A stretch of DNA of 36,300 nucleotides from Phycisphaerales bacterium (lineage in GTDB: Bacteria; Planctomycetota; Phycisphaerae; UBA1845). The stretch covers positions 1 through 36,300 of the forward strand of contig JABFSN010000187.1 in the NCBI GenBank assembly GCA_013140575.1, written 5' to 3'. The notes under the pieces were generated by a model. The model saw nothing but the letters and a program-made list of their open reading frames with translations. It was not told the origin of the DNA and did not search any database. The translations under genes and the position numbers were made by a program. Positions within the stretch are counted from its first letter, which is position 1, and each line of letters begins with the position of its first letter. This document shows, in pieces, positions 1 through 5,969 of the stretch.

Positions 1-1291
1 CCCACAGCCCACCGCCGCCCGCGGGCGTGCTGCGGCGGGCGAGCCATTGCCCGACGGTCAGTGCCGCAAAGGGCGTCAGCAGCATCACCGTGGGCAGGCA
101 GTAGCGCGAGCTGGAGACGTTCACCATCGCGTAGACCAACAGAATGAAGAGCGTGCACAGCACCAGCAATTCCACGGCCGGATCGCGACGGCGGAGCAGC
201 GGAACAAGGGCGACGACGGCCAACACCAGCGTGGGATAATTGACGGCCAGGTTGCCGACGCACTTCGGAACATCGCTCGCGAAGTACCAGAACCGCCACG
301 CGTTGATCAAGAGCTTGCGGGGCAACAGCGACGGCTGCTCGCGGATCATCGCGTAGGCCTCGCTCTTGAACAGCCGGTCGACGTCTTGCGGAATATCCCA
401 ATGCCCGGCCGTCTTTAGCGACGAGCGGCTGTAGGCTGTTCCGTGTCTGCCATTGACGCGTTCAAACGCCCTGGCTTCGCCATGGCGGATGGCGTCGTCG
501 GAATCGGGTCCGGCGTCGATCATGAAATTGCCGGACAACATGCTGAACCCGGGGCCGACGGCCACCGCGACCCACTCGCCCGACACCCGGTAGTTTCGCC
601 ACGTCCACGGCGCGACCAGCGTAAACCCCACCACCGTCGAAAGCGCCGCCGCCCGAAACCACGACGCCCGCCTCGCGGCCGCGTAGACCAGCACGACGCA
701 CGCGAACGGCAGAAGAATCGACTTGGTCAGGACGGTCAGCGCGAACGCCGCGCCGTGTGCGATTCCGCGGCCCGGGCTCGGGCGGCGGATCATGGCGTCG
801 AGCAGGCCGATGTACAGGACCACGGTGAATGAAAAGAACGTGTCCGCGAAACTGCTGGCGCAATAGTAGATCGACAACGGAAACACGACCGCGGGCATCG
901 TCAGCCACAACGCCCGCGAGCGGCCCAAAAGCGACGCCGACAGAAACAGGATCACCACACATGTCGCCGCGGAAAAGACACAATTGACCAGCACCGTGGC
1001 CACCCCCACGTCGGCAATCAGCGTATAAGCCGCGGCCAGCACCATCGGGAAACCCGGCCCGCGGTAGACGGTGGGCGGGGCGTCGGGGCCGAATCCAAAT
1101 ACGCCGTGTTCGACCAGGTTCTTCGCGACGGCCATGTAGCCATCCGTGGACGTGTGAAACTCCCGCGAACCCGGCCCGGTTTGAAGACCGAACACGGGGA
1201 CAATCACGAAACCAAAAAGCAGGCGCAGCAGAAGCGCCGCGACGAACACCGCGCCGGCCTGCGTGCCGATTCCGTATTGACGATCGGTCAT
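1..1291 (-). CDS. Membrane glycosyltransferase, GT39/PMT_2-like (C-terminus beyond window)
   Basis: Translating the minus strand from the ATG at 1291 gives about 430 residues with no stop, and the frame leaves the window at position 1, so the C-terminus is missing. The protein starts MTDRQYGIGT and has many hydrophobic segments, including an N-terminal one (AGAVFVAALLLRLLFGFVIV) and later ones (FPLSIYYCASSFADTFFSFT; LLVLCTLFILLVYAMVN). The first extracytoplasmic loop holds TSTDGYMAVAKNLVEHGVFG followed by YRGPGFPMVLAAAY, the usual layout of polyprenyl-phosphate-sugar-dependent mannosyl/arabinosyltransferase-like proteins (PMT_2 family), which glycosylate lipids or proteins at the membrane. 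The sugar and acceptor cannot be told. The start is the first in-frame ATG before the first membrane segment; no clear ribosome binding site is seen. The overlapping minus-strand reading at 462-1397 is arginine-rich and has no membrane pattern, so it is a shadow. Confidence 0.82.
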   Translation of the reverse strand, partial: MTDRQYGIGTQAGAVFVAALLLRLLFGFVIVPVFGLQTGPGSREFHTSTDGYMAVAKNLVEHGVFGFGPDAPPTVYRGPGFPMVLAAAYTLIADVGVATVLVNCVFSAATCVVILFLSASLLGRSRALWLTMPAVVFPLSIYYCASSFADTFFSFTVVLYIGLLDAMIRRPSPGRGIAHGAAFALTVLTKSILLPFACVVLVYAAARRASWFRAAALSTVVGFTLVAPWTWRNYRVSGEWVAVAVGPGFSMLSGNFMIDAGPDSDDAIRHGEARAFERVNGRHGTAYSRSSLKTAGHWDIPQDVDRLFKSEAYAMIREQPSLLPRKLLINAWRFWYFASDVPKCVGNLAVNYPTLVLAVVALVPLLRRRDPAVELLVLCTLFILLVYAMVNVSSSRYCLPTVMLLTPFAALTVGQWLARRSTPAGGGGLW

Positions 1292-1558
1292 GTTTTCGCC
1301 CACAGCCACACCGCAGTCCCCGGCGGTCGGACAAGTCGCCAACGAGGTTCGGACGACGACCGCGGAACCGCCCCGCGCGTCGCGATTCCAAACACAAGGA
1401 CGCAAGTCGAGCTTATCCCGCGGGCCCGAGCCCTGCCACGATTGAAGATCGGATGTTCTCCGGTCCCATGGTCCGTCCGTTTTAAGCCCGGTTGACTTGA
1501 TTTTCGGATCAAGCGTGGTGACCATACGCAGGGCGGCAGGCGGACTGCCGTTCCGCGT

Positions 1559-1956: not shown

Positions 1957-3324
1957 ATGAGAACGATCGCCGTTGTCAACCAAAAGGGTGGGGTGGGCAA
2001 GACCACGGTGTCCATCAATCTGGCGGCGTCGCTGGCCCGGGAGGGTCGGCGCGTGCTGCTGGTGGACATGGATCCGCAATCGCACTGCGCGGTCGGGCTG
2101 GCGGTGCCGGACGAGCAGATCGAATTGAGCGTGGTCGACGTGCTCCGCAGCCTGCGATCCGACGTGCGGCTGGGGTTCGAACAGGTCACATGGCAGATTA
2201 CGCCCCGGCTTGAACTGGCCGCCTCGACCAGGATGCTGGGCGAGTTGGAAGCGGACGAGGCCCACCGCGAGGACGGCACCGAGCTGCTCCGCCGGGCCCT
2301 CGAGCCACTAGGGCGGAAATACGATTTCGCGATCATCGACTGCGCCCCGCATGTCGGCGTGCTGATGCGCAACGCGCTCACCGCGGCCACCGACGTGATC
2401 ATCCCGGTGGAGACGGGCTATTTTTCGCTTCATGGATTGACGCGGCAACTCGCAACCATCGAGGGGCTGGTCAATGGAACGGGGCGGCGGATCAACGTGC
2501 GGGTCTTGGCCAATCATTACGACGTGCGGACCAAGTTGGCCCGCGAGATACTGGCCGAATTGCGCCGCAAGTTCGAGCACGTCCTGTTTTCGACGGTCAT
2601 CAACTTCAACACCAAACTGAAAGAGGGAACGAGTTGCGGTCAGCCGATCACCGAGTTCGCCCCGGAAAGCGCCGGCGCCCGCGATTTTCAGATGCTGGCC
2701 CGCGAGGTCGAATCCGGTTCGGCGGCGATGGAGCCGAGCGAAGCCATTCATGCCCTTGCCGAGCGGCTGGGGCGGGAGACGGATCGACTGGTGGCCGCCC
2801 GCGCGCCGTTGATGACGCGTGATCGCGAACCGGTCGCGGCCGGGGCGACGCGAACGGTCGCGCGGCCCCTGGTCCGACCGTCGGTTGTCCCGTCGCGACC
2901 CGTCGAGCGCGTGGCGATGCCCATGCGACCGTTCGAGCGTGTCGCGGTGCCGCCCGGTCTTGTCGCCCAACGGCGTGAAACGCTGCCCGCGGCAGCCGGA
3001 GCCGACGATCTGCACACACGGATTGATGCCCAATTGGCCGAGATTTACGGTCCCCGTCAGACGCCGGGCGGCGTGGTGTTCCGCACGCGTCATCCGGCGG
3101 CCGAACAGGTGATGCTGGCCGGCGATTTCAATGGCTGGATGCCGCACGAAACGCCGCTGGCGCGGCTGGACGAGTCCGGCGTGTTCCAGGCGACGCTGGA
3201 CCTGCGCCCAGGGCGGTATCGCTATCGGCTGGTGGTGGACGGGCGATGGGAATTCGACCGCGAGAACCCGTCAAGCGAGCGGAACGAATACGGCGAGGTC
3301 AATTCGATCGTGGAAGTGCGTTAG
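1957..3324 (+). CDS. ParA/Soj-type ATPase fused to a C-terminal CBM48/AMPK-beta-like glycogen-binding domain
   Basis: 455 residues. Residues 1 to about 265 are a ParA/MinD-type P-loop ATPase. It has the deviant Walker A KGGVGKTT at 10-17, the DMDPQ switch region, and IIDCAPHVGVLMRNAL followed by VIIPVETGYFSLHGL. Such ATPases dimerise on ATP and position plasmids, chromosomes or protein cargo. A linker of about 100 residues rich in Arg, Pro and Val follows, with a repeated RP(V/F)ERVA(M/V)P motif. Residues 370-455 look like a carbohydrate-binding module of the AMPK-beta/CBM48 type: LAGDFNGW (Trp394), a YRYRLVVDGRWEFD strand pair (Trp431) and an ending VNSIVEV. The two tryptophans match those that stack on glucan in AMPK-beta. 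ATG 1957 is chosen because ParA proteins begin just before the first strand (MRTIAVVNQKGG), with a purine-rich GAAAGCGGGG upstream. No parB neighbour is present. A cargo-positioning ATPase for glycogen is inference. Confidence 0.9.
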   Translation: MRTIAVVNQKGGVGKTTVSINLAASLAREGRRVLLVDMDPQSHCAVGLAVPDEQIELSVVDVLRSLRSDVRLGFEQVTWQITPRLELAASTRMLGELEADEAHREDGTELLRRALEPLGRKYDFAIIDCAPHVGVLMRNALTAATDVIIPVETGYFSLHGLTRQLATIEGLVNGTGRRINVRVLANHYDVRTKLAREILAELRRKFEHVLFSTVINFNTKLKEGTSCGQPITEFAPESAGARDFQMLAREVESGSAAMEPSEAIHALAERLGRETDRLVAARAPLMTRDREPVAAGATRTVARPLVRPSVVPSRPVERVAMPMRPFERVAVPPGLVAQRRETLPAAAGADDLHTRIDAQLAEIYGPRQTPGGVVFRTRHPAAEQVMLAGDFNGWMPHETPLARLDESGVFQATLDLRPGRYRYRLVVDGRWEFDRENPSSERNEYGEVNSIVEVR

Positions 3325-3325
3325 C

Positions 3326-3474
3326 ACGCGGCGCTCGCTCTTCAACCGCCCGCGTACGTCGTACCCCAGGAACACGGTGGCCGTCTCGTCAATGCCGGAC
3401 CCCTCGATGCGGGTGATCGGCCCGCGGGCGTCGCAGGTGCAGTCCATCTGCAGCAGAGTGGCCGGCCCGACCTG
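3326..3474 (-). pseudogene. Remnant of a YD/RHS-repeat protein
   Basis: Reading the minus strand from 3474 gives about 49 residues that resemble two YD repeats: CTCDARGPITRIEGSG and then FLGYDVRGRLKSERR. The family pattern is YxYDxxGRLxxE. The frame is closed by a stop codon immediately upstream (3475-3477) and has no start codon, signal peptide or further repeats, so this is a decayed piece. It lies tail-to-tail against the ParA-like gene, and its upstream edge coincides with the left end of the 170-bp inverted-repeat element. RHS/YD proteins are large secreted or toxin-bearing proteins; nothing here tells which kind this was. The call rests on motif resemblance only. Confidence 0.4.
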
Positions 3475-3644
3475 CTAAATAGAACCACAGAATAGGGAAA
3501 CCGATTCCATCATGGCGCGTTTTTCTTCGCCCGCAGGGCGCACGATCTTAGCCAGGGACTTCAGTCCCTGGACGACAGCCCCTGTCTAACTCCCGCCCGG
3601 AGGGCGCACGAAACCCGGTTTCCCTTTTGGGTGTTCTTATTTAG
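3475..3644. mobile_element. MITE-like 170-bp element with imperfect terminal inverted repeats
   Basis: The left end (3475-3503, beginning CTAAATAGAACCACAG) is an imperfect inverted copy of the right end (3616-3644, ending TTCTTATTTAG). Both share the inner block GGGAAACCG / CGGTTTCCC. Inside lie two near-identical 17-bp direct repeats (3529-3545 and 3595-3611, one mismatch), each starting with a small palindrome GCCC-GCA-GGGC or GCCC-GGA-GGGC. Between them is a perfect palindrome CCAGGGACT-TC-AGTCCCTGG (3552-3571). No protein is encoded. No clear target-site duplication was found. It could be a miniature transposable element or a composite of the palindromic repeats common in this genome. Confidence 0.45.
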
Positions 3645-3731
3645 TGGAACACGTGCTCGACGCGGCCGAGACCAGCAAGCAAGATCGTCAAGTTCACGTC
3701 CACGTTCGCGGCCGAACTGTCCGCGCGCCAA

Positions 3732-3940
3732 GCCCGTCGGGCTGCGCACGGACGTTTCACGCCCCGGCCGGGCAATTGCACACGTTCACCCCCGTGAACG
3801 CATCCAGAACGGCCAATATGTCGAAAATGTCGATGATCCCAGCCCCGACGGGGCGGCAGTCCGTAGCCGGGGGTGGAGTCCGCGCCGGCGGACGACACCC
3901 CCGGATCGCATCACCCCCTCGCCCCAAGCCCCAGCGGGGC
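3732..3940. repeat. Short palindromes near the dockerin remnant
   Basis: Four hairpin-forming units are visible: GCCCG-T-CGGGC (3732-3742), GCCCCG-A-CGGGGC (3842-3854), a 17-bp inverted repeat with two mismatches and a 4-nt loop (3867-3904), and GCCCC-AGC-GGGGC (3928-3940). None is followed by a T-run, so they are unlikely to be simple terminators. They resemble the units at 12006-12268 in general form. Confidence 0.55.
3757..3864 (-). pseudogene. Orphan dockerin-like C-terminal tail
   Basis: The minus strand reads IIDIFDILAVLDAFTG, then VNVCNCPAGA and a stop at 3757-3759. This is the same C-terminal segment as in the protein at 4020-5969 (LIDIFDILAVLDAFAG). A 28-bp stretch is identical between the two (3809-3836 and 4066-4093). 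No start codon or secretory N-terminus is attached, and the residues upstream soon lose the family pattern, so this is a leftover from a partial duplication or from a second deleted gene. It sits directly downstream of its relative, in the same orientation. Confidence 0.6.
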
Positions 3941-4019
3941 GAAAGAACCCGTGATCGGATACGCGCTCATAGCGTTGTAGTGGTAGGCCGCTCCCAAAAA
4001 GCCGGATGGTCTCGCGCCT

Positions 4020-5969
4020 CTACGGCAAATCGCAGCATAGGATGGTTCCGGCGAAGGCGTCTAATACGGCCAATATGTCGAAAATGTCGATGAGGCCGTC
4101 GGGCGCGCAAGGGATAAGGTCCACGTCCGGCATCGGGCAGGTGGTGAACACCCCCGCGAAGCCGTCGAGGACGCACAGGATGTCGAAGAGGTCCACCGTG
4201 TCGTCGGTGTTCACGTCGCCCCAGGACTGATTCGGGCAGTCGCATTCGTCGGGAATGGAATTGCCGTTGTCGTCGTCCGATCGGCCGACGGCGATGTCGC
4301 ACTCGTCGGGCACGAGGTTGAGGTTGCAGTCGGGGGCGGCCGCGGCCGCGAGGTCGCATTCGTCGGGGATGGCGTTGGTGTTGCAGTCCTCGCTCGACTT
4401 GGAAATCACGTCGCACGAGTCGGGCAGGCCGTTGGAATTGCAATCCATCGCCTGCCCGCCGCCCACCTCGACCGAGTCGATGGTCCCGTTGTTGTTGCAG
4501 TCCTCGCACGTATCCGGCACGCCGTTCCCATTCACGTCCGCCGCCCCGCCCACGATCTCGTCCGCGTCCGAAACGCAGTCCCCGTCGCAATCGTCGATGA
4601 CTTCGTAGATGTACACGCCCTCGCCGAGTCCCCAACTAGGGGTCATGTCCTGGCTCAACAGGATGCGATTGCCCTCCATGGCTACCATTTGCCCAAGCTC
4701 GGCCCCCGATTGCACAATGTCCGACCCGAGCAACCGCTGTTCCTTGTGCCATTGCCCGCCGGCGTAGCGGAACACGAACCCCGCTCCGGTGTCGAAGGTT
4801 GTGGGGATGTGATTCCAGGCCTCTGCGAGAATGCGATTGCCGCTGACGGCCACGTCCCAGCCGACGTTGTCGAATTTCTTGCCGTTGGCCATCCGTGTTT
4901 CGTAATTCCACGAATCGTCGGTCGGATCGCCGGGGGTGTTCCCGTCGTCGAGCCGAAAAGCGTATACCGAGCCGCCCTGAAGGACGTGAAACGTCTGATC
5001 GCCGGGCATACCCACGGCGATGAGGTCGCCTTCAATGTCCACCGCGTTTCCGAATATCGCGCCGAAATCGATGTACTTTGGAAGCAGCGTGTCCTCAAGA
5101 CTCCATGTGTCGTCGGAGACGTCGCCGGGTGTTCCGGGATCGTCGCGGCGGAAGACGTAGGCTCTTCCCGGCGGATTGCCGGGAGTGAACCCGCCACCCT
5201 CCGGGGCGCCGACGACGACACGGTTCTCCCAGACGGCCACGTCGGCGCCGAAGCTATCGTCCGGATTCTGGGTCACACCGGGGCTGGTGAGCTCCGCGTG
5301 CAGGGGCCACGTGTCGTCGGTCGGATTGTTGGGCGTGGTGTTGTCGTCGCGATGGTAGACGAACGCCGAGCCGCTGCCACCCAGCGAGCGGTTCTTCTCC
5401 GCTCCCACCACGATCCAATCGCCGTGAATGTCCGCGTCCTCGCCGAAGTAGTCCTCCGGTTCGGGGTTCAGGGCGAAAAGCTGGGTCTGTTCCAGCCAGA
5501 CGTCGTCCATCAGGTTTTCCGGCGTGCTCATGTCGTCGCGGCGGAAGACGTAGGCCGAACCGGCGTAACATTCGTAGCCGCCGCAGGGACCGCTGTCCTG
5601 AAACGCACCCACGACGATGTGACTCTGGGTCATGCCCACCGCCGACCCGAGGAACTGCCCCCCCGTGGGGTTGGAAGCGACCAGTCTCTGCCGGTACAAG
5701 ATCTGATCGTTTTCCTGCCAGAGATAAAGGTACACCGCGCCGGAATGAGCCCCGTTCGCGTCCTCTACGGTCGTCCCCTTCGCGCCAATCCCAACCCACG
5801 GGTAGCTCAGATTGAGCTTTACGGAAAACCGGTCGGCTGCCGGTTCAGGAGGATTTAGTCGAAACACTTCGTATTGCGTGCAGAATTGGCCCGCGGCAGA
5901 CTGCGCCAAAACCGCTGTGAGAAAGATGATGACTAGCAACTCCCGTAGTCTCGCGCTTTGTTGGTCCAT
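4020..5969 (-). CDS. Exported FG-GAP beta-propeller protein with TSP3-like repeats and dockerin-like tail
   Basis: 649 residues. An N-terminal signal peptide (LLVIIFLTAVLAQSAAG) shows export. Residues of about 45-455 form repeated units of the FG-GAP kind, each with a pattern such as FGxxVAxxGNRxVVGAP followed by GxAYVFRRD. I count about seven, which fits one seven-bladed integrin-like propeller. Next comes a run of Asp/Asn-rich calcium-binding repeats (DVNGNGVPDTCEDCNNNG; DCNSNGLPDSCD; DCNTNAIPDECD; DDDNGNSIPDECD) like thrombospondin type 3. The end holds two dockerin-like EF-hand/helix units, DVNTDDTVDLFDILCVLDGF and DGLIDIFDILAVLDAFAG. The tail is typical of planctomycete exported proteins and probably helps sorting or surface attachment; binding partners are unknown. 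GGGAG lies about 8 nt before ATG 5969. It is last in the minus-strand cluster, separated from the previous gene by a strong hairpin. Confidence 0.88.
   Translation of the reverse strand: MDQQSARLRELLVIIFLTAVLAQSAAGQFCTQYEVFRLNPPEPAADRFSVKLNLSYPWVGIGAKGTTVEDANGAHSGAVYLYLWQENDQILYRQRLVASNPTGGQFLGSAVGMTQSHIVVGAFQDSGPCGGYECYAGSAYVFRRDDMSTPENLMDDVWLEQTQLFALNPEPEDYFGEDADIHGDWIVVGAEKNRSLGGSGSAFVYHRDDNTTPNNPTDDTWPLHAELTSPGVTQNPDDSFGADVAVWENRVVVGAPEGGGFTPGNPPGRAYVFRRDDPGTPGDVSDDTWSLEDTLLPKYIDFGAIFGNAVDIEGDLIAVGMPGDQTFHVLQGGSVYAFRLDDGNTPGDPTDDSWNYETRMANGKKFDNVGWDVAVSGNRILAEAWNHIPTTFDTGAGFVFRYAGGQWHKEQRLLGSDIVQSGAELGQMVAMEGNRILLSQDMTPSWGLGEGVYIYEVIDDCDGDCVSDADEIVGGAADVNGNGVPDTCEDCNNNGTIDSVEVGGGQAMDCNSNGLPDSCDVISKSSEDCNTNAIPDECDLAAAAAPDCNLNLVPDECDIAVGRSDDDNGNSIPDECDCPNQSWGDVNTDDTVDLFDILCVLDGFAGVFTTCPMPDVDLIPCAPDGLIDIFDILAVLDAFAGTILCCDLP

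Follow-up and report, generated by a model that had tools for sequence, protein, structure and literature searches.

The locus described here raises the question of why a ParA-type ATPase should carry a carbohydrate-binding module (CBM). ParA/MinD ATPases place chromosomes, plasmids, carboxysomes, flagella and chemotaxis arrays, and the protein in question, called ParA-CBM below, joins an ATPase of this type to a module of the AMPK beta type. The initial annotation had proposed such a fusion and a direct coupling to glycogen. The fusion is real, with both domains above the Pfam cut-offs, and on the strength of the sequence the coupling appears plausible. The term window is used for the whole stretch of DNA that was analysed (36,300 nucleotides). 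The following features of the window are relevant to the argument:

1957..3324, plus strand: parA-CBM gene, 455 aa (Pfam domains and orthologue alignment)
1957..2724, plus strand: Soj-type ParA ATPase domain, residues 1-256 (PF13614, PDB match, fold)
1981..2007, plus strand: deviant Walker A motif, QKGGVGKTT, residues 9-17 (conservation of K10 and K15)
2527..2529, plus strand: R191, aligned with the DxRT arginine of Soj (sequence alignment)
2614..2616, plus strand: K220, aligned with the second DNA-contact arginine of Soj (sequence alignment)
2740..3066, plus strand: helix and low-confidence variable linker, residues 262-370, with a second helix at residues 349-364 (AlphaFold pLDDT)
3067..3321, plus strand: AMPK-beta-type CBM48, residues 371-455 (PF16561, PDB match, pLDDT)
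3136..3138, plus strand: W394, equivalent of AMPK beta-1 W100 (alignment to the AMPK beta-1 CBM)
3226..3228, plus strand: R424, equivalent of AMPK K126 (alignment)
3247..3249, plus strand: W431, equivalent of AMPK beta-1 W133 (alignment to the AMPK beta-1 CBM)
3301..3303, plus strand: N449, equivalent of AMPK N150 (alignment)
3325..4019, no strand: intergenic stretch, the site of an FlhG-like partner gene in most other families, none here

According to the open reading frame analysis of the window, the gene starts with the ATG at 1957 and ends with the stop codon at 3322-3324. A GTG at 1900 lies upstream in the same open frame; in the alignment, M1 matches the start positions of 18 orthologues. 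The gene is flanked on the 5' side by a membrane protein gene (1-1525, minus strand), the multi-pass product of which resembles GT-C glycosyltransferases, and on the 3' side by the gene for an FG-GAP protein (4020-5969, minus strand) with four FG-GAP_2 repeats. No sigma-70-like promoter was found for parA-CBM in a promoter scan, which is uninformative here.

The N-terminal domain has the deviant Walker A motif and the fold of the ParA/MinD superfamily. Residues 1-172 match AAA_31 (PF13614) with an E-value of 5e-43, and the same half of the protein has weaker Pfam matches to CbiA and to BcsQ; against NCBIfam, BcsQ scores under the cut-off. A sequence search of the PDB returns 8ray (5e-40), and the model of the ATPase domain superimposes on H. 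pylori Soj with a Z-score of 31.2 and an rmsd of 2.3 over 245 residues, the structural alignments to known folds covering the ATPase part only. Conservation was assessed on 152 distinct fused sequences, each verified by the CBM profile on fetched DNA. The Walker A lysines K10 and K15 are invariant (152/152). R191 and K220 align with two arginines of Soj, which we take to be R189 and R218 in the B. subtilis protein. The former position is arginine in 133/152 sequences, and the latter is lysine or arginine in 140/152. The contacts of these Soj arginines with DNA have been reported (PMC7229837).

Between the two domains, the AlphaFold model, which was built from an input alignment of 19 sequences, has pLDDT values below 50 across most of residues 284-348. 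The linker is indeed rich in arginine and proline in the window protein, as had been remarked, but its length and composition differ between orthologues: it is long and variable in planctomycetes, and short in Myxococcota and Omnitrophota. The suggestion that the linker contacts DNA non-specifically is therefore unsupported and was rejected. A predicted DNA contact is better explained by the Soj-type residues of the ATPase domain.

The C-terminal domain is assigned as a CBM from its sequence and from the pLDDT of the full-length model. AMPK1_CBM (PF16561) matches residues 379-455 with an E-value of 4e-14 and a score of 53 bits, the cut-off being 26.8, CBM_48 matches with 1.4e-9, and a PDB sequence search identifies the CBM of AMPK beta-1 (7.5e-9). 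In the AlphaFold model of the full-length protein, this region has an all-strand core and pLDDT values of 88-96. The tryptophans 394 and 431 are exactly where they had been placed, and they are the equivalents of the AMPK stacking tryptophans, since the FNGW and VDGRW segments align with both stacking segments. Tryptophan is found in 151/152 and 147/152 distinct fusions at these two positions, arginine or lysine in 139/152 at position 424, and asparagine or aspartate in 145/152 at position 449. The corresponding AMPK residues are presumably numbered 100, 133, 126 and 150. These residues suggest that the conserved site is a putative alpha-glucan site. It differs from the AMPK glycogen site at the position of T148, which is non-acidic in AMPK and is occupied by E447 in the window protein, and by E or D in 100/152 distinct fusions. 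The T148D exchange in AMPK abolishes carbohydrate binding (PMC4416872).

The fusion is not a peculiarity of one organism. All of the 60 nearest genomes have ParA matches, and most of them have the fused protein. With the orthologue profile (E 1e-75), it is found in 136/218 genomes of the class, probably Phycisphaerae, since the Sedimentisphaerales record L021 sits within the clade. At the same threshold it has no match in any of the eight genomes of family f4, which belongs to the window's own order, nor, among the genomes listed, in those of f107 and f13 and in several of f102. A contig scan identified three further hosts of the full-length fusion: one MAG each from the Myxococcales and the Omnitrophota, and one other bacterium. 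By an approximate, by-eye tally of the matches listed, long-frame and high-scoring family members are present in at least about 150 of 334 Omnitrophota genomes and in about 80 of 377 Myxococcota genomes. The fusion is thus widespread in at least three phyla, and the concern that it might be confined to a single genome is answered.

A maximum-likelihood tree was calculated from the ParA domains of 56 fused and 55 plain sequences, the latter being the nearest plain ParA proteins by profile, with more distant ParA/MinD types outside the sample. A branch with 100/100 support has 54/55 of the plain sequences on one side and all 56 fused ones on the other. The window genome's own Soj (contig C220) groups with the plain ParA proteins, and ParA-CBM does not group with chromosomal Soj in this tree of 111 domains. 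Only one plain sequence breaks this pattern: it comes from the Myxococcota, has no CBM that was detected, and is nested among the fused ones; otherwise the CBM is present in essentially every sampled member of the fused family. The fused ParA domains are one family, separate from chromosomal Soj, and in view of the clean split the fusion looks old, with a single origin of its ATPase type. Two members have unusual architectures: in the Myxococcota, the fused-clade member at L335 (near 5582) has a lost or frame-shifted CBM and has kept the FlhG-like partner, and at L191 (6875-10363) a frame of 1163 aa, counted from a candidate start, has a long N-terminal extension ahead of the ParA-CBM part.

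A profile scan of ten window ORFs near parA-CBM detected no member of the ParB family, in line with the initial annotation, but most relatives do have an adjacent partner gene, which is not a parB and had been missed, together with its N-terminal motif. This gene, FlhG-like, is next downstream of parA-CBM in families f2, f9, f10, f11, f12 and f15, in f101-f106, f108 and f111, and in nearly all sampled Myxococcota loci. It lies on the same strand and usually overlaps parA-CBM or follows it within 200 bp. Among the planctomycete and Myxococcota proteins that were tested, none has a Pfam match. FlhG is the best match of the partner profile in the PDB (4rz3, 5.6e-8) and the top fold in a Foldseek search with the partner model (4rz2, 5.6e-6), so that the partner has both the MinD-like fold and the sequence profile of FlhG/FleN. 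The P-loop (Walker A) is missing in 72/73 partner homologues. Sequence and model point to an FlhG/MinD-like pseudo-ATPase that has not been described before.

In the partner model, a lone N-terminal helix is separated by disordered sequence from the MinD-like domain, behind which another domain forms the C-terminus. The N-terminal motif reads EISHLFLSS or DLADLFLTG in planctomycetes, DVLDYFLP in Myxococcota and DVSHVFLSS in Omnitrophota. In the Omnitrophota, an unrelated membrane-spanning protein encoded just upstream of the fusion has a motif of the same kind, IYEHLAKIYLDA, at its N-terminus, followed by a transmembrane segment and, behind it, another domain. The motif pattern is present in 27/37, 13/21, 4/4 and 12/12 partners versus 6/240 control genes, counts that are descriptive only, because the pattern was fitted after inspection of the partners. 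Several of the partners that miss it have doubtful start sites. In A/D ATPase systems, approximately 30 N-terminal residues of the partner make contact, and N-terminal peptides are the part of ParA/MinD partners that docks on the ATPase (PMC10241942). Most relatives encode an adjacent partner with an N-terminal peptide that may dock on the ATPase, the arrangement expected of McdAB-type positioning; in the window genome, the profile search detected no such partner.

Partner genes are also absent from the sampled loci of f1 (the window's family), f8, f14, f109 and f110. No partner ORF was detected in the window, and searches of the whole window genome with two profiles gave no partner hidden elsewhere. 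Related f1 and f8 genomes do contain matches to the partner profile of about 300 aa, which look like ordinary FlhG. Gene neighbourhoods vary in other ways as well. In another Omnitrophota clade (L298, L299, L300 and L307), parA-CBM is located directly behind purL/purQ-like genes, with no partner detected. In other Omnitrophota loci (L315, 6489-6812, and L312, 4799-5110), it is followed by a gene for a small multi-pass membrane protein, weakly similar to DUF4870. In the Myxococcota loci L320 and L323, a gene for a MerR-like regulator closely precedes parA-CBM, and a divergent gene for an HldE-like ADP-heptose kinase/transferase is conserved upstream in f8 (L134, L136, L137, L138 and L140).

As to whether glgA or glgB lie nearby, there are no glg genes beside parA-CBM in the window, and GlgA and GlgB were not found in the window genome. 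Above the cut-offs, GlgA is present in 1/218 and GlgB in 23/218 genomes of the class. Neither protein is enriched with the fusion, and the classical glycogen pathway was dropped as support. Glycogen phosphorylase has no match in the window genome, and a genome search of G009, which has the fusion, yields no match for GlgB, GH57 or phosphorylase. The co-occurrence of GH57 and glycogen phosphorylase with the fusion was likewise dropped as an argument, as fusion-less families carry both; GH57 in particular does not discriminate, because it is present in the fusion-less families f4 and f107. Other loci speak in favour of a glucan link. Contig C133 of the window genome has a locus for a GH133 debranching enzyme (4e-111), a GT4 protein with a starch-synthase-like domain and a GH57 protein, a gene set that resembles an archaeal route (reviewed in PMC11046441). 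In six Omnitrophota loci, a GH57 gene is found two genes upstream of the fusion; all four such loci in the tree fall into one clade, and the adjacency may be a single event. In the fusion-less f13 genome G392 (contig C1, approximately 230949-236765, minus strand, part of it L176), a stand-alone AMPK1_CBM protein of 109 aa is encoded next to a glycogen phosphorylase, a GT5-like synthase and a GH13 enzyme, which suggests that the AMPK1_CBM type goes with glucan in this class.

We favour the reading that ParA-CBM is a ParA-type positioning ATPase with a cargo or anchor domain of its own, which is tethered to glucan and, where a partner exists, triggered by it, and assign to this reading a probability of about 0.4. 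The ATP-bound dimer would sit on the nucleoid, and its CBMs would hold it, through avidity, on an alpha-glucan particle inside the cell or on a complex that makes glucan. The N-terminal peptide of the partner would dock on the dimer and trigger ATP hydrolysis and release, as the peptides of ParB and McdB do. As a consequence of this triggered release, the glucan store would be spread along the nucleoid and divided between the daughter cells. Since no partner was found in the window's lineage, there may be another trigger there, or a static tether between nucleoid and glucan. The model draws on the fusion itself, the single family, the conserved Walker, DNA-contact and CBM residues, the partner with its motif, and the GH57/GH133 loci. 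The rarity of GlgA and GlgB, the lack of glucan genes in G009, the fusion-less families with GH57 and the acidic residue at the T148 position speak against it.

Alternatively, instead of binding sugar, the CBM fold could serve as a protein-docking module for the partner or for an envelope machine, in a system that positions a protein or surface complex. AMPK1_CBM domains can sit embedded in protein complexes, the N-terminal motif shared by partners and Omnitrophota membrane proteins is a possible CBM ligand, classical glycogen genes are mostly missing, and E or D is common at the T148 position. However, conservation at the two stacking tryptophans, at the basic residue and at N/D449 greatly exceeds that of most positions around them, which fits a sugar site, and the fusion persists in lineages without the partner, so that we regard this explanation as unlikely. 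A role of the CBM as a sensor would leave the sugar site in place: binding of glucan or oligosaccharide would switch the ATPase or its DNA binding, and chromosome or cell-cycle behaviour would follow the carbohydrate status. AMPK beta responds to glycogen, and ParA-CBM has a CBM of this type with a conserved site, a single copy per ATPase, and a linker that is short in Myxococcota and Omnitrophota. The long flexible linkers of the planctomycete proteins, on the other hand, fit tethering more than allostery, and positioning systems are characterized by an operon partner with a docking-type peptide, which makes the sensor role rather improbable.

The cargo may also be sought at the envelope. Together with the FlhG-like or a membrane-anchored partner, ParA-CBM could place a machine for polysaccharide synthesis or export, with the CBM recognizing a cytoplasmic glucan intermediate or a lipid-linked sugar. 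BcsQ, which places the cellulose machinery in the cell, turns up as a relative both in Pfam and in the fold comparison, the Omnitrophota partner combines a transmembrane segment with a further domain, and HldE, which makes ADP-heptose, is the divergent neighbour in f8. As the BcsQ match stays under its cut-off, the HldE adjacency was observed mainly in f8, and this type of CBM is known for alpha-glucan, we consider an envelope function quite improbable. It is far less credible still that ParA-CBM is a second, ordinary ParA for chromosome or replicon partition, with an incidental CBM. The ATPase is close to Soj in fold and sequence, but the family is separate from Soj, which the window genome encodes elsewhere, the ten ORFs scanned at the locus contain no ParB, and the CBM has been kept in essentially all members sampled in the tree.

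If the favoured positioning model is true, it would provide a function for proteins that are annotated as plain ParA. Bacteria with the fusion may actively position a carbohydrate store, because a ParA-like motor with a CBM has been kept in at least three phyla, usually with a partner. Only tentatively do we extend this to a hitherto undescribed, multi-phylum class of ParA positioning systems, in which an ATPase with a carbohydrate-binding cargo domain and a Walker-less FlhG-like switch would partition glycogen-like stores on the nucleoid. How bacteria distribute such reserves to daughter cells is largely an open question, which the built-in glucan-type domain, the one conserved partner and the candidate docking peptide make testable. 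In the open-access literature, with most subscription journals outside it, we found no paper on a ParA with a CBM48 or AMPK1_CBM domain, and neither glycogen nor polysaccharide is mentioned in two papers on ParA (PMC10241942 and PMC9178275).

With the Soj/ParA proteins of ParABS systems, ParA-CBM shares the fold, the Walker motifs and the aligned DNA-contact positions. It differs from them in forming a separate family in the tree, in its C-terminal CBM, and in the FlhG-like partner that, where there is any, takes the place of ParB. The McdA/McdB system is similar in the nucleoid-type ParA fold (Z-score 28 for McdA) and, in most relatives, in the adjacent partner with a conserved N-terminal peptide. 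In contrast to McdA, ParA-CBM has its cargo or anchor domain on the ATPase itself, its partner is a pseudo-ATPase of the MinD type, and no carboxysome genes were seen. The CBM belongs to the same sequence family as that of AMPK beta (PF16561, CBM48), with the W100, W133 and N150 equivalents and with R or K at the K126 position, but it sits on a ParA ATPase, and in most fusions the T148 position is acidic. The partner, finally, resembles FlhG/FleN by profile and fold and in the short N-terminal helix ahead of the domain. Unlike FlhG/FleN, it lacks the Walker A P-loop in nearly all homologues, was not seen among flagellar genes, is encoded together with parA-CBM, and in planctomycetes has an added C-terminal domain.
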